33,219 nucleotides of DNA from a virus. Where the stretch lies: positions 1-33,219 of IMG/VR virus record IMGVR_UViG_3300032092_000136. One strand, written 5' to 3'. Made by a program: the position numbers and the translations under genes. Of the stretch, positions 1 to 33,219 are shown piece after piece. The stretch's first letter is position 1, and every line of letters starts with the position of its first letter. The notes under the pieces are model-generated. The model did not search any database. It was not told the origin of the DNA and worked only from the letters and a program-made list of their open reading frames with translations.

Positions 1-127
1 GCAAACTCTAGGGGCGCACCGTCTGCTCCTGTCAATTCGTGCTTTTGGGTTTCTGCCCAGCGCATCTGTGTCTTGCTCCACCAAATAGCCGCAGTCGTGT
101 CTCCAGCCATTACCTTTTGGAATAGGG
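1..127. repeat. Terminal direct repeat, left copy (circular-contig overlap)
   Basis: These 127 bases are identical to 33093-33219. The repeat lies inside one gene (TerS), whose reading frame is restored when the ends are joined, so it is best read as an assembly overlap of a circular or circularly permuted molecule. An exact 127-base length is what a k-mer assembler would leave. P22-like terminases package by headful, which yields circularly permuted genomes and agrees with this reading. Confidence 0.93.
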
Positions 128-383
128 TTTTCCCTACCTGTGCGTTTGCCTTGGCTTTGCCTGATTGCATCTCACTTGCAAAGTGCGCCCGTAGGGTATC
201 AACGCTGATTCCGTCTCGTATCAATGCGCCTATTTGGTCAATTGGCAAGCCATAACCGCTGAGTGCTTCTACCTGTTTGCGCTCTGAATCGGTAGGCTCA
301 AAGGCTGGTCTACCTGCGCCTTCCCGTGCGCCGCCGTTAGGACCACGCTTTTTTAATATGGGTTTTTCAGTTTTCTTTGACAT
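1..383 (-). CDS. terS: Terminase small subunit (5' part; gene continues across the contig seam)
   Basis: Small DNA-recognition subunit of the packaging motor. The ATG at 381-383 is preceded by a strong ribosome site (GGAGGT, 5 bases before the ATG). Joined to 33059-33092 through the circle, the frame is exactly 139 codons (138 aa), matching the family. A basic Gly-rich start (GGAREGAGRP, about residues 17-26) leads into a helix-turn-helix-like stretch (residues 35-70, YGLPIDQIGALIRDGIS), then an oligomerisation region with KAKANAQVGKTLFQK and AAIWWSKTQMRW, both typical of phage small terminases. It follows the radical SAM gene by 44 bp and overlaps TerL by 8 bp. The function is inferred from family resemblance and position before TerL. 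Confidence 0.85.
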   Translation of the reverse strand, partial: MSKKTEKPILKKRGPNGGAREGAGRPAFEPTDSERKQVEALSGYGLPIDQIGALIRDGISVDTLRAHFASEMQSGKAKANAQVGKTLFQKVMAGDTTAAIWWSKTQMRWAETQKHELTGADGAPLEF

Positions 384-427: not shown

Positions 428-1384
428 TTAGTCGTTGCACATGCAGTTACGACATATATCGTGATTTTGCCATTCTTTGGTACTGTGGATGCGGCGAAGA
501 TGTTTCATCTTACTTGAATCCCATGCTTCTTGTAGAGTCATAGTCTCAATGTTGCCTATTGGTAGTTTTTTGCCAGCCAATTTACAACATGGCAGTATTT
601 CACCATCATCATCAATCACAAGTTGCTTGAAAGGCAAGTCACATCCCTTACTTGGCATTTCAACATCCGCAATAGTCAGACTTGTTTTTCTGTCTGGTAT
701 TTCATTCATCTTTTGAAATGCAATTAAGTCTGCCCTGTCTTGCCAAAACTCTTGAAAAGCTTTTTCCTCGTGTTTATTTATTTGGTTCAGCAAGAAACTC
801 ACACGAACAAGTGGAAATTGTTGTCCAAGTTCGTTACGTTCTTTAATAAAAGCCAAAACATTAGCAACCACTTTATTAAATTGACCTGACAATCTCTGCT
901 TATTGTAAGTTTCTTCGGTCACTGCATCAAGAGATACAAACAACTTAGTTAAACCTGACTGTATTAGTGATTGTCGTCGTTTGGGCGTTAAAAGTGTTCC
1001 GTTTGTAACCATGTAAATATTGATGATGCCTTGATCTCTAGTCCAGCGGATGATTTCCTCAAGGTCTTTGCGAAGCATTGGTTCATTTATGTAATTGAAT
1101 TTGACAGCTTTGACCCCAATACTGACTGCTTCTTTTAAAATCTTTTCAAACTTTTTACGATCAAGTAAGTTGTTTTCAATCTTTTGGTATCCGTGAATAC
1201 AAAATGGACAGGCCATGTTACAGCCAGCATTTAATTCAACATCAATTTGCAAAGGGTGCGAATGTTCCTGTAAATCAGATGCACTTGTCATCATGCTTCT
1301 AAATTCGTCCCACTCTTTTTTGTCAACATCAGGCGGACAGGCAGAAAGTAAGTGTTGATTGTGAAATTTATGTGTTTTTGTCAT
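428..1384 (-). CDS. Radical SAM enzyme with C-terminal SPASM-type cluster domain
   Basis: Predicted iron-sulfur enzyme (318 aa) that cleaves S-adenosylmethionine to start radical chemistry. The radical SAM signature CNMACPFC (C55, C59, C62) binds the 4Fe-4S cluster. A barrel follows (NEPML, MVTNGTLL, SLDA). The C-terminus has a SPASM-like set of cysteines (C248, C266, C267, C311, C314, C316) with the usual PIGNIETMTLQEAW stretch. The ATG at 1382-1384 was chosen; an in-frame TTG at 1417 would add 11 residues and overlap the glycosyltransferase, and neither has a strong ribosome site. It is the last member of the ParB-glycosyltransferase-radical SAM run. The region is AT-rich: 1081-1140 has 19 G/C of 60, against 35 of 60 at 32641-32700 in TerL. 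The substrate is unknown; DNA bases or a peptide are both possible. Confidence 0.88.
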   Translation of the reverse strand: MTKTHKFHNQHLLSACPPDVDKKEWDEFRSMMTSASDLQEHSHPLQIDVELNAGCNMACPFCIHGYQKIENNLLDRKKFEKILKEAVSIGVKAVKFNYINEPMLRKDLEEIIRWTRDQGIINIYMVTNGTLLTPKRRQSLIQSGLTKLFVSLDAVTEETYNKQRLSGQFNKVVANVLAFIKERNELGQQFPLVRVSFLLNQINKHEEKAFQEFWQDRADLIAFQKMNEIPDRKTSLTIADVEMPSKGCDLPFKQLVIDDDGEILPCCKLAGKKLPIGNIETMTLQEAWDSSKMKHLRRIHSTKEWQNHDICRNCMCND

Positions 1385-1403
1385 TTGTAACTTTTTTCGT
1401 GTC

Positions 1404-2315
1404 TTAGTTATTTTCAACAGTGCTTGTAATCCGAGAGAGCACTCTTGGTTTTCGATGCGATTCTTCTAGTATTTTTGGCACTGCATATTTCCATACAACT
1501 TGATGATGTATTCGTCTATCCGTAGTTCCAAGTTCACTTATTTTTACGCTTGATGGGGCATACATAACAGAATAAAAAGATTTAACATAAGTGCCAAAGT
1601 CAACATATGCCTCAGTCATTCCACCAGCATCTTGTTGTGTAATTTGCTGCTGTAGTCGTAATTGTGGTGATGTCATCAGTAGAATTCCACGCCTACCGTG
1701 TTCGACATACATATTCACATCATCATTCATTCGACCCATAAATTCGACTGGGCGATCTACACGAAACATAAATGAGTTCATTACCTTGCGATAAATTTCA
1801 TCTTTTCGCATCTTGCTCAGTAATACGCAACCTTCACCACCGATAAAGTCGCCTCCTTGTGCGAATGCCACCGAATGAAAGGGTGTTGTATCTAAAAATT
1901 CAATCAGTGCAAGTAAAACATCATCCAGTTTTCCAATCTTATTTTCTGAAGTTATGTACTGCATTTCCTCATTAGTCGAGTAATCAAACCTTGTGTAATC
2001 GTCATCCAGCTGCCAAAAGTGTGTTAACTTAAGGTTGGCTGCAATTTTGAAGTTCATGTTTCTTGCGTAGACTACGCTGTTGCGTTTTTTGAAGTTGTCT
2101 CCGCTGTCAGTTGCATCAATTCCATCTTGTTTGTTGAAAACGATTACAGAATCCTTGCCATAAACTTCTTTGTATTTATCAAGTTGTTTGTCCTCGTCAT
2201 CACATAAAAGGTAAATCTTACCTGTGTAACCTTGTTTACGTAACGTTTCAAAGGTGTAGACAGAATTTGCTCGACCATGCGTCAGAATGAATACAGCAAA
2301 AGTCTTAAGCATCAT
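1404..2315 (-). CDS. Phage glycosyltransferase, TAGT (TET-associated glycosyltransferase)-like
   Basis: Predicted GT-A-fold nucleotide-sugar transferase (303 aa). Seen: an opening strand FAVFILTHGR (residues 6-15), LLCDDEDKQLDKY, SVVYARN (about 80-86), the DxD-type acidic motif QLDDDYT (D104-D106) for metal and sugar nucleotide, and a conserved tail around GGMTEAY...KSFYSVMYAPSSVKI. From memory this matches the phage family proposed to glycosylate modified bases in DNA. The ATG at 2313-2315 was chosen because AAGG lies 9 bases upstream; a second ATG follows at once. It overlaps ParB by 11 bp and ends 19 bp before the radical SAM start. No TET/JBP dioxygenase or pyrimidine hydroxymethylase is visible here, so the acceptor is an open question. 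Family call by recollection, not by search. Confidence 0.8.
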   Translation of the reverse strand: MMLKTFAVFILTHGRANSVYTFETLRKQGYTGKIYLLCDDEDKQLDKYKEVYGKDSVIVFNKQDGIDATDSGDNFKKRNSVVYARNMNFKIAANLKLTHFWQLDDDYTRFDYSTNEEMQYITSENKIGKLDDVLLALIEFLDTTPFHSVAFAQGGDFIGGEGCVLLSKMRKDEIYRKVMNSFMFRVDRPVEFMGRMNDDVNMYVEHGRRGILLMTSPQLRLQQQITQQDAGGMTEAYVDFGTYVKSFYSVMYAPSSVKISELGTTDRRIHHQVVWKYAVPKILEESHRKPRVLSRITSTVENN

Positions 2316-3102
2316 GCTTTTCACCCTTTTCGCTAGTGTATACATCACCTATAGCTTGCGAAAGTTTTACATATCCGTTGGCAATAGCTTTATCAAAGTC
2401 AATAATGATTAATGCGCTTTCTTCCATCAGTTGCTGTATGTCTGGACTGGCGTGGGCATAAAACTCGGCAATTTGCTCAAAGTCGAATCGAATATGCCTT
2501 GCGGCTGCTGCCAGCAAAAAATCTTTGACTTCTGACTTAATTTCGGGGTCTTGATAGATTTTTGCCGTTAGTTCCTCGTATTTTGTTTTTTCGTAAAGTT
2601 CATTTATAGGCGGACAATCACCCGAAGGTGTATAAACTGGAGCATCTATTTTCTTTGTGTATTTACTATCGTCATTTTGCTCATCTGAATCACTTAAGAA
2701 CGTCAATTCTGTGATTTCTTCTGCTGTAAATCCAGTTAAATCAATGTCAAAGCCTAGACCATCTATTTCTTCTAGTTCTAGCGATAACATGTCATTGTCC
2801 CAATCAGCATTTTGAGCCAATTTATTGTCTGCAATGATGTAAGCTCGCTTTTTTGCATCGCTCCAACCTTTTGCCACCATCACAGGCACTTCGGTCATTC
2901 CTAGTTTTTGCGCCGCCAGTGTGCGCCCATGCCCTGCAATGATTCCACCTGTCTCATCTACCAAAACTGGGGTTGTCCAGCCCCACTCTTTGATGCTTGC
3001 CGCAAGTTGTGAAACTTGCTCACTAGAGTGAGTTCGTGCGTTTCGTGCATAAGGGATGAGTTTATCAATGGCCCATTTTTCGACTTTATCTGCTGGATTC
3101 AT
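2305..3102 (-). CDS. ParB/Srx-fold domain protein of a phage DNA-modification cassette
   Basis: N-terminal ParB-like domain (about residues 5-100 of 265) with IDKLIPYARNARTH, LAASIKEWG, and the nucleotide-binding box GGIIAGHGRTLAAQKL (GHGR at 57-60). The C-terminal half (from about 160) has an all-helical segment (KDFLLAAAARHIRFDFEQI...AEFYAHAS...LIIIDFDKAI) that I recognise from phage ParB proteins encoded next to TAGT-like glycosyltransferases. The ATG at 3100-3102 has AAGGA 4 bases upstream, immediately after the terminator hairpin. It overlaps the glycosyltransferase by 11 bp. No partition partner (ParA) or parS repeat is seen, so a role in sequence recognition or as a nuclease/CTP switch for DNA modification is more likely than segregation. 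The biochemical role is inference. Confidence 0.85.
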   Translation of the reverse strand: MNPADKVEKWAIDKLIPYARNARTHSSEQVSQLAASIKEWGWTTPVLVDETGGIIAGHGRTLAAQKLGMTEVPVMVAKGWSDAKKRAYIIADNKLAQNADWDNDMLSLELEEIDGLGFDIDLTGFTAEEITELTFLSDSDEQNDDSKYTKKIDAPVYTPSGDCPPINELYEKTKYEELTAKIYQDPEIKSEVKDFLLAAAARHIRFDFEQIAEFYAHASPDIQQLMEESALIIIDFDKAIANGYVKLSQAIGDVYTSEKGEKHDA

Positions 3103-3111
3103 AGCGTCCTT

Positions 3112-3133
3112 AAAAAAAAGGGGCCGAAGCCCC
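3112..3133 (-). terminator. Strong intrinsic terminator upstream of the ParB gene
   Basis: On the minus strand GGGGC-TTCG-GCCCC (3120-3133) forms a five-pair stem with a UUCG tetraloop and is followed by eight T residues (3112-3119). This is a textbook rho-independent terminator. It falls after the HNH gene and just before ParB, within genes all on one strand. Late genes must therefore be reached by read-through, antitermination or an unseen promoter. AAGGA, the ParB ribosome site, begins directly after the T run. Confidence 0.85.
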
Positions 3134-3246
3134 AAGGCTGGCAACTGCTACCAACAAGGATGGAAACTGTCGAGCGGGGTGCTTTGGGTGCGTCCACCCT
3201 CACTTCACTTGCCATTTGTCAATTCCCATCCCTGTTGTCAGCGTTT
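3134..3246 (-). other. Untranslated spacer with alternative hairpins before the terminator
   Basis: This 113-base spacer between the HNH gene and the terminator contains, on the minus strand, GGGTG (3195-3199), which can pair with CACCC at 3186-3190 or with a second CACCC at 3176-3181. The two pairings are mutually exclusive. A 16-codon frame (3200-3250) is ATGA-coupled to the HNH gene, and a 38-codon frame (3099-3215) reads through the terminator; neither looks like a known protein. A perfect TTGACA (3217-3222) lacks a -10 partner. Confidence 0.4.
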
Positions 3247-3579
3247 TCATTCTACTGCAATTGGTATATTTATGTTGATAGGCCATTCACCTCTGTGAAC
3301 CAAAAGTTGCACGGTTTTGTAGTGCGCCACTTTCCATGCAAGTTTTCTTTCATCTTTTGACCACTTTGAACCTTGGTCAATGTCGTAATGGCAGCTCATG
3401 CAAAGGGCTGCTGTGTACTCATCGCTGGCCTTAATTCCCCTGCCTTTGCCGCCTAAGTCAACCCAGTTTGAGTGTGCGGCTTGGACAAAGTTGCCTGAAC
3501 CGCATATCTGACAATCAAGACTTGCCACTTTTTTAAGCAATTGCTTGCTGCGGACATATTCGTATTTTTTAAAACTCAT
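3247..3579 (-). CDS. HNH-type zinc-ribbon protein, Ref/DUF968-like nuclease
   Basis: A 110-aa protein with paired cysteines C23-x2-C26, the central AAHSN (H36), a Gly/Lys loop GGKGRGIKASD, then C60-x2-C63-H64 followed by D66 and D68. This spacing is that of small phage HNH nucleases related to Ref/DUF968 proteins that act in recombination or repair. The ATG overlaps the upstream stop in an ATGA. It is the last gene of the early minus operon, before the spacer and terminator. Its distance from TerS and its family make a recombination role more likely than the packaging-linked HNH role. Confidence 0.68.
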   Translation of the reverse strand: MSFKKYEYVRSKQLLKKVASLDCQICGSGNFVQAAHSNWVDLGGKGRGIKASDEYTAALCMSCHYDIDQGSKWSKDERKLAWKVAHYKTVQLLVHRGEWPININIPIAVE

Positions 3580-3908
3580 CGCATCGCACGATCAGTTCTG
3601 TTGCCAGCGTAAATGTTGGCTTTTTCGGCTTCAATCCGTGCCTGTGCTGCTACCATCAACCAGCGGGTGCGTTCTCTTTGCTCTACCGCAGCCTGTAACG
3701 CCAGCAAGTGTTGAACATATTTTGGGTCGGCGTAGGCTTCACGCTCTTGGGCGGCTGTGGTCTTGTGGCCTTGTATTTCAAAGTCTTTCATTAACTGCGC
3801 TTTGACGGTTTTTCTGAGTTCCGTCATGTAAACCAACTGTGCCTCTGCTACGGCATAGTCTCCAGCGTGGTCACGCAAATAGTCTACGGCTCGGTCAAGG
3901 TTGCTCAT
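3576..3908 (-). CDS. Conserved helical phage protein, unknown function
   Basis: A 110-aa charged, mostly alpha-helical protein. The stretch AAQEREAYADPKYVQHL and the following AAVEQRERTRWLMVAAQARIEAE are characteristic of a phage family often found beside nucleases and replication genes; I know no established function. Start supported by GGAG 7 bases before the ATG. It overlaps the VRR-NUC gene upstream by 14 bp and the HNH gene downstream by 4 bp, so it is translated in the same chain. A role as nuclease partner is conceivable from context only. Confidence 0.72.
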   Translation of the reverse strand: MSNLDRAVDYLRDHAGDYAVAEAQLVYMTELRKTVKAQLMKDFEIQGHKTTAAQEREAYADPKYVQHLLALQAAVEQRERTRWLMVAAQARIEAEKANIYAGNRTDRAMR

Positions 3909-4170
3909 TTATCACTCCAATCATTCGTAATGCCGCTTCTACGCTGTCAATCCGTGCCAAGGTACTACCAGCCCAATTGTTAAAAAAGTCTGTCTGTAGG
4001 CTCGTTAAACGCTTTTTAGAGGTGGTTTTGACTTCAACCAAGAATGTGTGGCCTTTGTAACCCACCAAAAGGTCAACTGGTAGGCCAATCACCCAAACAT
4101 AAGCCCCGACTTTGCGTAACGCCGCCACGATTTCGGTTTGGTTAGCATCTATTCTTGCTGCGTATCTCAT
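3895..4170 (-). CDS. VRR-NUC-like nuclease (minimal PD-(D/E)xK fold)
   Basis: A 91-aa protein matching the small VRR-NUC nuclease layout: an N-terminal helix DANQTEIVAALRKVG (residues 8-22), then VDLLVGYKGHTFLVEVK with D33 and E46-x-K48 as the metal-binding PD-(D/E)xK core, and a C-terminal helix (EAALRMIG). Such proteins cut branched or structured DNA during phage replication and recombination. Starts just after the 56-aa gene and overlaps the next gene by 14 bp. The length is typical for stand-alone phage versions. Confidence 0.78.
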   Translation of the reverse strand: MRYAARIDANQTEIVAALRKVGAYVWVIGLPVDLLVGYKGHTFLVEVKTTSKKRLTSLQTDFFNNWAGSTLARIDSVEAALRMIGVINEQP

Positions 4171-4171
4171 G

Positions 4172-4342
4172 CTATTTCCCAGTGCTTTGCTGTTTTTTCA
4201 ACAATTCGATTTGCTCGGCAACGCACTTCCCCAAGCCCTTCCAATAGGGACTTTTCTCGTATTTCCTGACCATGTGCCGAACATGGTCTATCCAGCCCTG
4301 ATTCATGGCAAGTTTGGCGTAATGTTCCGCTAGTTTTTTCAT
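4172..4342 (-). CDS. Small conserved phage protein (56 aa), unknown function
   Basis: This frame starts at an ATG overlapping the upstream stop (ATGA at 4339-4342) and ends with TAG at 4172-4174. The protein reads HYAKLAMNQGWIDHVRHMVRKYE then YWKGLGKCVAEQIELLK, a pattern I recognise from short phage proteins in replication operons. A competing frame (4167-4349) on the same strand gives an unpatterned product and is rejected. Basic, helical, no membrane segment; function unknown. Confidence 0.72.
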   Translation of the reverse strand: MKKLAEHYAKLAMNQGWIDHVRHMVRKYEKSPYWKGLGKCVAEQIELLKKQQSTGK

Positions 4343-4662
4343 TGTTCATTTATTGTTTCTGTTATTCGCAAGGCACGTTTAGCCATTTCAACCACCTCAA
4401 TTGGCTTTTTTACACCCAATTGATGTTCGGCAAGGATTCGTTTTGCCCAATACTTTTTATCATTAACGTTGGCTTTTTCGTCTTGGGTAAGTTCTCTATG
4501 TTCTGAACGCACAGGCCAAGAACCCCACTGGTGGTAGCTGCAAAGTGGTCGCTCAATATTTATGCTCCAAGGCTTACCGCAGCCTGGGTGAGTGCAAAGC
4601 AAATAACGCCCTTCGTCAATGGTTGATTCTTGACTTGTTTTCTTAAAATTAGTGAGTGCCAT
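4339..4662 (-). CDS. Putative zinc-binding phage protein in the replication operon
   Basis: A 107-aa protein with a compact metal-site pattern: C23, H25 and C28 in CTHPGCGKPWS, then C41 and H44 in LCSYHQW. The C-terminal half is helical and charged. Start supported by AGAAGGA 7 bases before the ATG. It overlaps the DUF1376 replication gene by 14 bp and the next small gene by 4 bp. Proteins of this layout often follow DnaT-like initiators in phages; a DNA-binding or loader role is plausible but not shown. Confidence 0.65.
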   Translation of the reverse strand: MALTNFKKTSQESTIDEGRYLLCTHPGCGKPWSINIERPLCSYHQWGSWPVRSEHRELTQDEKANVNDKKYWAKRILAEHQLGVKKPIEVVEMAKRALRITETINEQ

Positions 4663-5425
4663 GGTATTTTCCTTCTACGATTTTTGCAAAATTGCTTGGC
4701 TTCAAAATCCACTCAAGGTCTGCCAAAAATGCCCTACCGTCTTTGCTGTTGACCCGACCCGTTAAAAACTTGGATTGTCCAATGTGGTCAAAGAATTCTG
4801 TAAACCAAGTCAAAACGTCTGAAATTTCGGCCTTTTTGTCCTTTGCTAATTCTTCTGCCACTTCCCGCCATCTTTGCCGCAGATAACCTTTTCGTGTGTC
4901 ATTCCAAACTTCTACCCTGCGTAACGTTGGCAAGTGCTTGTGGTACAGGTCAACAATGGCTTGATGGTTGCATTTTGGTAAACCTGCTTTATCGTCAAGT
5001 TCACCGTTAGGTGGACATATATATTTATCTTCTTGGTTTATGGTTTCTAGTTTATAGTTTATAGTTGCCTTAGCGATGGGTTCCGAGTCGGTTGCCATTG
5101 GGATACCCACTGGGTTCTTTTTGCGTCCACCAAGCCGACCATTTGTTCTATTTTTTTCGGCCATTGCGTGATACTGTTGTATTAAATCATCACATTTAGC
5201 ATGAAACCAGCCATCCTCATGCTTGACAAACATATCTTGCAGCACCCCATCAACCACTTGGATAGTCATTCGTAATCGTTTGGCAACCCACTGGGTATCG
5301 AGTGGTATTTTTTGTTCAGTGTCGTAATACATATCCAAAAGTCGGCGATAAGCCAAATCTTCTTCATTGGATAAATGAGCTGTTGCAGCTCGATAGTCAC
5401 CAATATTAAATTGGAAATAGTGCAT
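4649..5425 (-). CDS. DUF1376/YdaU-type phage replication protein
   Basis: A 258-aa protein opening with HYYF-like MHYFQFNIGDYRAATAHL, then LSNEEDLAYRRLLDMYYDTEQKIPLD, the DUF1376 signature of phage replication initiators. A linker with AEKNRTNGRLGGRKKNP follows, and a C-terminal domain (from about residue 165: WNDTRKGYLRQRWREVAEEL...WFTEFFDHIGQSKFLTGR) typical of DnaT-like helicase-loading regions. The ATG at 5423-5425 has AAGGA 6 bases upstream; a longer TTG-start version is less likely. First gene after the regulator in the minus operon. Confidence 0.78.
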   Translation of the reverse strand: MHYFQFNIGDYRAATAHLSNEEDLAYRRLLDMYYDTEQKIPLDTQWVAKRLRMTIQVVDGVLQDMFVKHEDGWFHAKCDDLIQQYHAMAEKNRTNGRLGGRKKNPVGIPMATDSEPIAKATINYKLETINQEDKYICPPNGELDDKAGLPKCNHQAIVDLYHKHLPTLRRVEVWNDTRKGYLRQRWREVAEELAKDKKAEISDVLTWFTEFFDHIGQSKFLTGRVNSKDGRAFLADLEWILKPSNFAKIVEGKYHGTH

Positions 5426-5489
5426 AAATTTTCCTTCGCTGTCCTCCGCTGAGAAAGAAACAATCGGCAGGCGGGGAGGCTCGCTTTTC

Positions 5490-5511
5490 GGTTTGGAGAT
5501 CAAGCCAAACC
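5490..5511 (-). other. Seven-pair hairpin between the regulator and replication genes
   Basis: On the minus strand GGTTTGG (5505-5511) pairs perfectly with CCAAACC (5490-5496) around an 8-base loop, 19 bp past the end of the YdaS-like gene. No T run follows, so it is not a standard terminator. It could mark an mRNA processing or attenuation point. The gap 5426-5530 holds no convincing gene. Confidence 0.45.
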
Positions 5512-5530
5512 TAGCCGTGTTTCAAAAAAA

Positions 5531-5713
5531 CTATACAACAACCTTTTGCGCCTCCGCAATCTGCTTCTTAAACTTGTACTTCAACACCTGCTCCCATGAC
5601 TTAGGAACGCCCCGCTGCCGCCAGTTGCACACAACGTTCTGCTTTACGTCCAGGATAAACGCTAGCCGCCCCGTGCCACCAGCCGCTTTGATTGCTATTT
5701 CTAAGATGTTCAT
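5531..5713 (-). CDS. YdaS/Cro-like helix-turn-helix regulator
   Basis: A 60-aa DNA-binding protein: IAIKAAGGTGRLAFILDVKQ (helix 1-2), then NVVCNWRQRGVPKSWEQVLKY (recognition helix and helix 4). The W-RQRGVP stretch is typical of the YdaS family of Cro-like phage regulators. The ATG at 5711-5713 lies only 6 bases from a perfect TATAAT, so the message is probably leaderless. It is transcribed divergently from the early plus operon, with operator-like palindromes over both promoters; autoregulation and control of the early operon are inferred. The frame extends upstream to 5851, but that would read through the promoter. Confidence 0.8.
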   Translation of the reverse strand: MNILEIAIKAAGGTGRLAFILDVKQNVVCNWRQRGVPKSWEQVLKYKFKKQIAEAQKVVV

Positions 5714-5719
5714 TGCAGC

Positions 5720-5750
5720 ATTATATACACGATTGTGAATCATTGCGTCA
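5720..5750 (-). promoter_or_regulatory. Promoter and operator of the YdaS-like gene
   Basis: A perfect -10 TATAAT lies on the minus strand at 5720-5725, leaving 6 bases before the start codon. The -35 region (about 5743-5748) is weak. An imperfect palindrome at 5726-5739 (TACACGATTGTGAA on the plus strand) matches the perfect site at 5813-5826 in 12 of 14 positions and abuts the -10. Weak -35 plus operator fits an autoregulated promoter. Confidence 0.6.
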
Positions 5751-5803
5751 TTAAAAAAATCTATCAACAACAGAGAACCGATTAATTTATTTATTAAAAA
5801 GAG

Positions 5804-5833
5804 TTGCAAGGCTTCACAATTGTGAATTAGAAT
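5804..5833 (+). promoter_or_regulatory. Early plus-strand promoter P1 with perfect operator palindrome
   Basis: -35 TTGCAA (5804-5809), an 18-base spacer, and -10 TAGAAT (5828-5833). The spacer is mostly filled by the 14-bp perfect palindrome TTCACAATTGTGAA (5813-5826). A repressor bound there would block RNA polymerase directly. The region is part of a duplicated module: AAATCTATCAACAAC (5757-5771) recurs upstream of P2. Confidence 0.65.
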
Positions 5834-5842
5834 GTACTCATG

Positions 5843-5873
5843 CCGAAACATTCCGTATCGGTCTTTTAAGGAA
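5843..5873 (+). promoter_or_regulatory. Early leader 1: short hairpin plus TCTTTTAAGGAA
   Basis: CCGA (5843-5846) can pair with TCGG (5858-5861), followed directly by TCTTTTAAGGAA (5862-5873), which includes the ribosome site for the gene at 5878. The same layout recurs at 7199-7227 and 7495-7516 with different stems. ACTCATGCC precedes both P1 and P2 leaders. Confidence 0.5.
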
Positions 5874-5877
5874 AATT

Positions 5878-6078
5878 ATGAAACCTCAAGAACTTTACAA
5901 AGGTATCAAGGTAGTGGCTACCGACCTTCCAAATGCAACTGTTTATACAGTTCAATCAATTAAAAATTTTACAATAGAACTTGTCTACACCACGCCCAGT
6001 GGTCAAGAAGTAAAAGCTGGTGTTCTTGATGCTTGCTTTTTAAAACTTCCCACCATTCAACAACTCGCAAACGCTTAA
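5878..6078 (+). CDS. Small early protein, unknown function (66 aa)
   Basis: First gene of the plus operon, starting 4 bases after AAGGAA. The product is a small beta-rich protein (IKVVATDLPNATVYTVQSI...FTIELVYTTPSGQEVKAGVLD) resembling a compact SH3-like barrel, with a KLPTIQQLANA tail. No catalytic motif, Cys pairs or membrane segment. The position right after the operator-controlled promoter suggests a host-takeover or regulatory role. Unknown family. Confidence 0.65.
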   Translation: MKPQELYKGIKVVATDLPNATVYTVQSIKNFTIELVYTTPSGQEVKAGVLDACFLKLPTIQQLANA

Positions 6079-31839: not shown

Positions 31840-33066
31840 CTACCAGCGTTTTACATTAGGCAATGGCGTAAATGTAACTGGTTTTGTAACTGCTGCCCTT
31901 CTAATGCCTTCACAGGCGTATCGCAAAGCATCAATTACGTGGTTCTTTTTGTCCTCAAGATGGGGCAGAATGCGCCCCGTCAATGGGTCTGATTTATAGC
32001 TGTACAGGCTTAATTCGTCAATGGTGTGTACGCAGCGAGGGTGAACCACGATGTCGTAGTTCTTGAGAAACTCGATGCCTTCTTCTACCGACTTTGGTCC
32101 TTTGACCGCTGTCATTATCTTAGGGAAGCCGTTGCGCTTCATGTGGCTGATGGTTTCAGGTCGGGCTGAGTCTGCCACGATAGGCCACTTCTCTGCCTCT
32201 GGCACTTGCATGAATAGTTCAGGCGTGTTGACAATCTCGCAGCCAACCATGTACGCCTCATAGTCAATGTAAAGCGTTCGCCCAATAATGTGGCAGCGCA
32301 CCAATACGGTCGGGTCTACTGAGAACCCCCAATCAGCACCAAGCCTGTGGATAACTTCTGCTGGGGCTTCAAACTCATCAATTTTCCAGTTCCTAAATAC
32401 CCTACTGTTACTGTTTCGCAGGTACTGACCCATCCAAACGTGCTGGTATTTGTCAGGGTCACGCCGCTTGTCGTACTCCATCTCGTCCTTCAGGACTTGC
32501 GGAAACCAAGGATTGTCACCAAAGTTGACCTTAATCACTGCGGCATCGGTTGGCGGCTCAGGGCCACGCAACAAGAAGTCCACGGGGTCGCTGTTCTGCC
32601 GAGGGTTCCACGTGAACCATAACTCGCTGTTAGGTTTGCGGATGGTGGGGCGCAGCAGGTCGAGGCTAGTCTGACTTAGGCTTTGTGCTTCCTCAACCCA
32701 AGCGCAGTCGTAACCTTCTAGCGATTTAATGCTGTCGGCTGTGTGGTTCTGCATCCCTTGGAAAATAATCATGCCATCGCCCTTACGGGACTTGATGACC
32801 GCATCTTGCACTTCAAAGTATGCGCCAGCGTTCATTGCCTCAATCTTTGTCTCCAGCAGCCGCTTCACGGATTGATTGAGTGACTTCTGTATCTCACGAA
32901 CACAAACGCTTCTGCGCTTTTGGTCAAGAATGTGGCCTTCAATCATTAGTTCGGCAAAGGTGTGCGACTTACCCGAACCTCGACCACCCCATGCGCCCTT
33001 ATAGCGACTGCCTTCCAGCAGCGGGAGTGCCCACTCAGGGGTTTGGATTTGCAGGGTTTTACCCAT
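31840..33066 (-). CDS. terL: Terminase large subunit (ATPase-nuclease motor)
   Basis: A 408-aa PBSX/Terminase_3-type motor that pumps DNA and cuts headfuls. ATPase: Walker A GGRGSGKS (27-34), Walker B with acidic pair DCAWVEE (120-126), coupling motif FTWNP (151-155). RNase H-like nuclease: GADWGFSVDP with D245, VADSARPE with D299, and NHVIDALRYA with D379, all present. Overlaps TerS by 8 bp; the portal gene follows after 22 bp. TerL of this type in a P22-like cluster predicts headful (pac) packaging. Confidence 0.95.
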   Translation of the reverse strand: MGKTLQIQTPEWALPLLEGSRYKGAWGGRGSGKSHTFAELMIEGHILDQKRRSVCVREIQKSLNQSVKRLLETKIEAMNAGAYFEVQDAVIKSRKGDGMIIFQGMQNHTADSIKSLEGYDCAWVEEAQSLSQTSLDLLRPTIRKPNSELWFTWNPRQNSDPVDFLLRGPEPPTDAAVIKVNFGDNPWFPQVLKDEMEYDKRRDPDKYQHVWMGQYLRNSNSRVFRNWKIDEFEAPAEVIHRLGADWGFSVDPTVLVRCHIIGRTLYIDYEAYMVGCEIVNTPELFMQVPEAEKWPIVADSARPETISHMKRNGFPKIMTAVKGPKSVEEGIEFLKNYDIVVHPRCVHTIDELSLYSYKSDPLTGRILPHLEDKKNHVIDALRYACEGIRRAAVTKPVTFTPLPNVKRW

Positions 33067-33219
33067 GCTTGACGATTACACGCTCGATTTTGGCAAACTC
33101 TAGGGGCGCACCGTCTGCTCCTGTCAATTCGTGCTTTTGGGTTTCTGCCCAGCGCATCTGTGTCTTGCTCCACCAAATAGCCGCAGTCGTGTCTCCAGCC
33201 ATTACCTTTTGGAATAGGG
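33059..33219 (-). CDS. terS: Terminase small subunit (3' part, across the contig seam)
   Basis: C-terminal third of the TerS gene, entering from the right edge and ending with TAA at 33059-33061. The last residues are ERVIVKHG. The final eight bases (ATGGGTAA on the minus strand) are also the first eight of TerL, so the subunits are translationally coupled. Bases 33093-33219 duplicate 1-127, so this is the same gene as the entry at 1-383, not a second copy. Confidence 0.85.
   Translation of the reverse strand, partial: LFQKVMAGDTTAAIWWSKTQMRWAETQKHELTGADGAPLEFAKIERVIVKHG
33093..33219. repeat. Terminal direct repeat, right copy
   Basis: Second copy of the 127-base terminal repeat; position 33093 corresponds to position 1. 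Removing one copy gives a 33,092-bp circle. No inverted repeat or transposon signal flanks it. Confidence 0.93.

Follow-up and report, generated by a model that had tools for sequence, protein, structure and literature searches.

The TAGT glycosyltransferase of phage T6 (Pfam PF20691) adds a second glucose onto glucosylated hydroxymethylcytosine in DNA (PMC13216743, PMC13390438). In T6, this acceptor is provided by a hydroxymethylase and an alpha-GT. According to a 2026 survey, 288 of 753 phage genomes have TAGT homologues but neither alpha- nor beta-GT, and these homologues were termed potentially novel transferases (PMC13216743). TAGT proteins are also the sugar transferases of the TET/JBP-TAGT phage hypermodification systems. 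In the CmoA-CmoX-CmoY carboxymethylcytosine system, the carboxymethyl handle comes from a C5-MTase homologue, and ParBc proteins are frequently coded beside the cytosine-modification enzyme CmoX and are often fused to DNA methyltransferases (PMC12783734). Finally, the arabinosyl-cytosine of RB69/NP and the pentosyl-cytosine of Thanatos are found in T4-type phages with a dCMP hydroxylase/hydroxymethylase, in which sugar-supply enzymes are linked to a DNA sugar transferase; ParB and radical SAM proteins are outside these described pathways (PMC13390438, PMC12838424).

We analysed the IMG/VR virus record IMGVR_UViG_3300032092_000136 over its whole length of 33,219 nucleotides (hereafter called the window), in which genes for a ParB_N-domain protein, a TAGT-family glycosyltransferase and a radical SAM enzyme lie side by side. 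The locus shares its transferase family and GT-A fold with the T2/T6 pathway, the TAGT as sugar transferase with the TET/JBP systems, the ParB_N (ParBc) protein with the Cmo system, and the association of sugar-supply enzymes with a sugar transferase with RB69/NP and Thanatos. It differs from them in that neither a hydroxymethylase, nor TET/JBP (in a search without positive control), nor a C5-MTase homologue was found in the window, whereas ParB and radical SAM proteins are added. Our literature search found no description of this trio; an earlier mention of parts of this gene neighbourhood in the 2013 TAGT-defining survey is possible. The best explanation, to which we give a probability of about 0.5, is a modular phage DNA-glycosylation cassette whose radical SAM enzyme tailors the sugar.

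Layout of the cassette and identity of its proteins

The window begins and ends with the same 127 bases, and the genome is therefore complete, with about 33.1 kb of unique sequence. Its ORFs include those for a P22 coat protein, a tail accessory factor, a gp7 ejection protein, an ERF recombinase and a YqaJ exonuclease, indicating a P22-like phage. On the minus strand, the genes are ordered ParB_N (3102-2305), TAGT (2312-1404), radical SAM (1384-428), TerS, TerL (33066-31840) and portal, and the TerS/TerL region reads across the record join with the same continuation as in the related contig L046. The features are as follows:

2305..3102, minus strand: ParB_N-domain protein, 265 aa (PF02195; phrog_620; N-terminal part similar to phrog_498)
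1404..2312, minus strand: TAGT-family GT-A glycosyltransferase, 302 aa (PF20691; invariant DD, D103-D104)
428..1384, minus strand: radical SAM enzyme, 318 aa from the conserved ATG (CxxxCxxC at 55/59/62 and twitch-type auxiliary Cys 248/266/311/314)
1..383, minus strand: terminase small subunit (TerS), 5' part; the gene crosses the record ends
31840..33066, minus strand: terminase large subunit (TerL), after TerS on the circularised genome
1..127 and 33093-33219, no strand: direct terminal repeat, identical bases

The ParB and TAGT genes overlap by 8 nt (2305-2312). A start of the radical SAM gene at TTG 1417 would make it overlap the TAGT gene, and a start at ATG 1384, the equivalent of which is used by its relatives, leaves a 19-nt gap. 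The overlapping arrangement proposed in the preliminary description thus holds for the first two genes, and for the last two only with the TTG start. The same trio is found in the human-gut phage MT835491, in the unrelated IMG/VR phage L071 and in dozens of other IMG/VR contigs, which bears out the view of the three genes as one conserved cassette and refutes a chance association. With GC contents of 38.4% and 37.5%, respectively, versus 45.8% for the genome, the TAGT and radical SAM genes fit an acquisition by (recent) transfer.

The ParB_N protein matches PF02195 with 30.9 bits (cut-off 26.3), a membership that does not imply a partition function. It also matches phrog_620, and its residues 2-162 match the ParB part of the DNA-methyltransferase family phrog_498. 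Its initial assignment as a ParB-like protein with a DNA-recognition-type domain was retained. ParB_N proteins occur next to, or fused to, enzymes that modify phage DNA (PMC12783734). The glycosyltransferase was confirmed as a TAGT by its match to PF20691 (E = 1.7e-33; 116.7 bits for a cut-off of 27.5), a family whose characterised member, from T6, adds sugar to phage DNA (PMC13216743, PMC13390438). In an alignment of the window TAGT with 13 phage relatives (14 diverse members), D103, D104, R84, N196, D198, R267 and H269 are invariant, D103-D104 being the conserved GT-A metal-binding Asp pair. No solved structure was found to match this TAGT by sequence, and its structure model (pLDDT 58.5) was left out of the analysis.

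The third protein matches PF04055 (E = 1.2e-14; 55.3 bits for a cut-off of 29.5), with C55, C59 and C62 invariant, and the SPASM signature PF13186 (E = 1.5e-13). Its conserved auxiliary Cys residues are 248, 266, 311 and 314, plus 267. It had been called a SPASM radical SAM enzyme, which is correct for the radical SAM part and the PF13186 match, but with four auxiliary Cys it is of the twitch type rather than a full seven-Cys SPASM protein. Its best sequence match in the PDB is BtrN (E = 9e-22, over both domains), followed by MoaA (5e-15), and the BtrN alignment is ungapped over 75 residues that include the auxiliary cluster. BtrN, a 2-deoxy-scyllo-inosamine dehydrogenase, is thus the closest solved sequence, with a single twitch auxiliary cluster of the same Cys spacing; BtrN itself acts on an antibiotic aminocyclitol. 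An AlphaFold model (pLDDT 82.8) confirmed the radical SAM/twitch fold. In fold comparisons, SkfB, BlsE, SuiB, MoaA, DesII, anSME and BtrN were tied or nearly so (Z 16-18.5), and since sugar enzymes and peptide maturases are found together in this group, the fold does not decide the substrate. A QueE-type 7-deazaguanine route was rejected, as no QueE assignment appeared among the best family matches of the enzyme.

The ParB-TAGT core and its third gene

A ParB gene was detected in 203 of the 243 distinct TAGT loci from IMG/VR; many of the other 40 are truncated at a contig end or come from distant TAGT lineages. The pair is near-universal among IMG/VR TAGT contigs, with the proviso that these matches are mutually related and that their counts do not correspond to independent events. 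It is also present in isolates. In Escherichia phage 683R6, Lactobacillus phages c5 and jlb1, and Nocardia phage NTR1, the ParB gene (an unnamed ORF matching ParB in NTR1) directly precedes TAGT, in most cases with an overlap, and the terminase genes come right after the pair; in the archaeal virus HHTV-2 (Haloarcula), TerL lies a few kb downstream of it. ParB and TAGT make up a widespread core of two genes, to which a radical SAM gene may be added as a third.

Queries with the radical SAM protein only yielded 63 distinct virus contigs, of which 61 are informative (in L039 and L366 the gene starts at the contig edge). Of these 61, 59 have a TAGT gene no more than four genes away, namely 55 from an automatic tally, L347, L367, whose adjacent TAGT scores 27.0 bits, just below the 27.5 cut-off, and L040 and L043, with edge fragments. 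An apparent MTase-TAGT fusion in L347 turned out to be an over-long ORF call spanning two separate genes. The two contigs without TAGT are L374, which harbours genes for an N6/N4-methylase, the radical SAM enzyme and ParB, and L373. In the latter (positions 2138-5945), a radical SAM protein of the same family has no visible ParB or TAGT beside it and is adjoined by an AMP-binding ligase and two more radical SAM/SPASM-like proteins.

The gene orders of the cassettes are ParB-TAGT-rSAM, ParB-rSAM-TAGT, rSAM-ParB-TAGT and ParB-TAGT-TAGT-rSAM. The radical SAM proteins, cellular homologues included, form about 20 clusters at 60% identity, and a second subfamily (about 23% identical) occupies the same place in MT835491 and L071. 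Between the window and L048, the radical SAM proteins are 84% identical and the TAGTs 18% identical, showing that the radical SAM gene is passed from one TAGT lineage to another.

A class I SAM-methyltransferase family was found in 12 of the 51 distinct TAGT loci with a radical SAM gene versus 2 of the 192 without (Fisher p 1.5e-7, indicative only because the loci are related). Its members include L046:710-1540, L048:3704-4519, L342:2309-3103 and L368:2192-3097; the gene is inside the cassette in L342 and L368, and in some other cases kilobases away. This family, absent from the window, is a possible fourth component of the cassette.

Acceptor and sugar genes

We searched for enzymes that might provide an acceptor on the bases. 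Genes for dCMP hydroxymethylase (thymidylate synthase fold, PF00303) are absent from the window and 16 relatives, with detection in 9 control genomes, and C5-cytosine-MTases (PF00145), also detected in controls, are absent from the window and from the other records searched except that of L071. Neither the window nor the other whole records searched contain N6/N4 methylases, and the window has no second radical SAM gene. TET/JBP gave no match in the window and 16 relatives, in a search that scored in no control genome, and a Pfam scan of the window ORFs likewise found none. The preliminary statement that TET/JBP and a pyrimidine hydroxymethylase are missing is thus well founded for the hydroxymethylase, while for TET/JBP it stands as not found without a positive control.

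Sugar-related genes were identified near a minority of the ParB-TAGT pairs, and their positions are close. Genes for NAD-dependent NDP-sugar epimerases/dehydratases are at rank 1 in 15 of 22 cases and those for TagD/RfaE-like cytidylyltransferases in 9 of 11, compared with a baseline of 457 of 2443 (19%) for all flanking genes. All five counted UDP-galactopyranose mutase genes are within rank 2 (the L139 protein, at 338 bits, exceeds the NCBIfam cut-off), and all three sulfotransferase genes lie beside the pair. Cassettes with a radical SAM gene can include such genes as well, in the orders TAGT-rSAM-cytidylyltransferase (L330/L331) and ParB-rSAM-MTase-TAGT-epimerase (L368). UDP-galactopyranose mutase genes were seen beside ParB-TAGT in L110, L115, L122, L123, L139 and L212, together with a sulfotransferase gene in L122/L123, which suggests that galactofuranose and sulfated sugars are placed on the same acceptor.

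The radical SAM enzyme also has cellular homologues, 35-40% identical over their full length, in Aenigmatarchaeota, Rickettsiales, Pelagibacteraceae and Prochlorococcus. They are coded in polysaccharide clusters, directly 3' of a glucose-1-phosphate cytidylyltransferase gene (TIGR02623; 379 bits in L148, over the cut-off; 226 in L150, 243 in L152 and the split gene of L149 below it). In L147, L148 and L150, a gene without a Pfam match (L147 and L150 scanned) follows the radical SAM gene. As other phages fill this slot with genes for nucleotide-sugar or sugar-tailoring enzymes, and as the cellular relatives belong to polysaccharide clusters, a sugar is a likelier substrate of the radical SAM enzyme than a base. 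Together, the neighbouring genes, the cellular clusters and the relationship to BtrN make sugar tailoring the best explanation.

In the proposed mechanism, the ParB_N protein would guide or license the modification of phage DNA, and TAGT would use an NDP-sugar to glycosylate a base. The BtrN-like twitch radical SAM enzyme would alter this sugar by radical chemistry, either on the NDP-sugar or once on DNA, the likeliest reaction being an oxidation or a rearrangement of a sugar carbinol. We infer DNA as the acceptor, and the acceptor atom, the identity of the sugar and the type of reaction are equally matters of inference. What counts against this explanation is that no handle enzyme has been recognised in complete ParB-TAGT genomes, leaving the acceptor unexplained, that only a minority of the ParB-TAGT pairs are accompanied by NDP-sugar genes, that the fold of the radical SAM enzyme matches peptide maturases equally well, and that in L373 and L374 its gene occurs without TAGT. 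A more specific version, which we put forward tentatively as somewhat less than an even bet, is a horizontally shuffled assembly line similar to those of O-antigens. ParB and TAGT would place a sugar on bases without the help of any known type of handle enzyme, and the sugar would be diversified by exchangeable tailoring enzymes, in the window by the radical SAM enzyme. Such a system would provide, to our knowledge, the first case of a DNA sugar tailored by a radical SAM enzyme, and perhaps of an unactivated base being glycosylated.

Alternative readings and related loci

Three other readings were weighed. The cassette might put its sugar onto something other than DNA, for example RNA, a protein of the virion or a glycan of the cell surface, and the radical SAM enzyme would then tailor this sugar or a peptide. 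The lack of a detected handle enzyme, the surface polysaccharides served by the cellular relatives and the fold ties with peptide maturases are in keeping with it; however, the precedent for TAGT is DNA (PMC13216743), both the ParB_N partner and the location beside the terminase genes agree with those of phage DNA-modification genes, and the ParB domain matches the ParB-DNA-methyltransferase fusions of phrog_498 (PMC12783734). We consider this reading unlikely.

The preliminary description suggested a role of the radical SAM enzyme as handle-maker, whereby it would functionalise the base by hydroxylation or carbon insertion and so give TAGT its acceptor. A complete genome with no hydroxymethylase or TET/JBP found (the latter search having no positive control) and the near-constant presence of TAGT beside the radical SAM gene speak for it. 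However, among the 30 IMG/VR contigs whose TAGT is at least 80% identical to that of the window, the 3' side is clear in 28, and in 25 of these TAGT is followed straight by TerS, only 3 carrying the radical SAM gene. Family searches over whole records found this gene once per genome harbouring the trio, and did not find it in G001-G007 or in the isolates 683R6, NTR1, c5, HHTV-2 and jlb1. Since close relatives and isolates, including complete genomes, keep ParB-TAGT without the radical SAM enzyme, the transferase does not need it, and TAGTs this similar should not be expected to use a different acceptor only where it is present. With sugar enzymes as slot-mates and cellular relatives, the handle-maker role was not upheld, and we regard it as quite improbable. 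Least probable of all is that, next to DNA glycosylation by ParB-TAGT, the radical SAM enzyme independently modifies the same bases in another way, concerning neither the sugar nor the handle: the gene is indeed optional and mobile and co-occurs with the methyltransferase family, but this would leave unexplained the NDP-sugar genes in the same positions and the polysaccharide clusters of the cellular relatives.

For TAGTs without alpha- or beta-GT, the present analysis provides an anatomy: a ParB partner that is almost always there, a location mostly next to the terminase genes, and a slot for tailoring genes that is occupied by UDP-galactopyranose mutase, epimerases, cytidylyltransferases, sulfotransferases, a methyltransferase or radical SAM enzymes. 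The cultured viruses Lactobacillus c5, Nocardia NTR1 and HHTV-2 make the question directly testable. If the explanation is correct, phages would diversify the sugars of their DNA as bacteria do their surface glycans, which would matter for restriction, for defence by DNA glycosylases and for new DNA chemistry.

Another TAGT, approximately 41% identical to that of the window, is coded by the T4-like Vibrio phage pv27 (L375:5893-6894), with no adjacent ParB gene. This phage has one thymidylate-synthase-family gene; genome searches for AGT and BGT had no positive control. Its TAGT is a possible bridge to the known glycosylation of hydroxymethylcytosine-containing DNA. In the records L005, L006 and L007, the product name beta-glucosyl-HMC-alpha-glucosyltransferase has been carried over from T6 to phages without a detected hydroxymethylase, and this name is probably misleading there.
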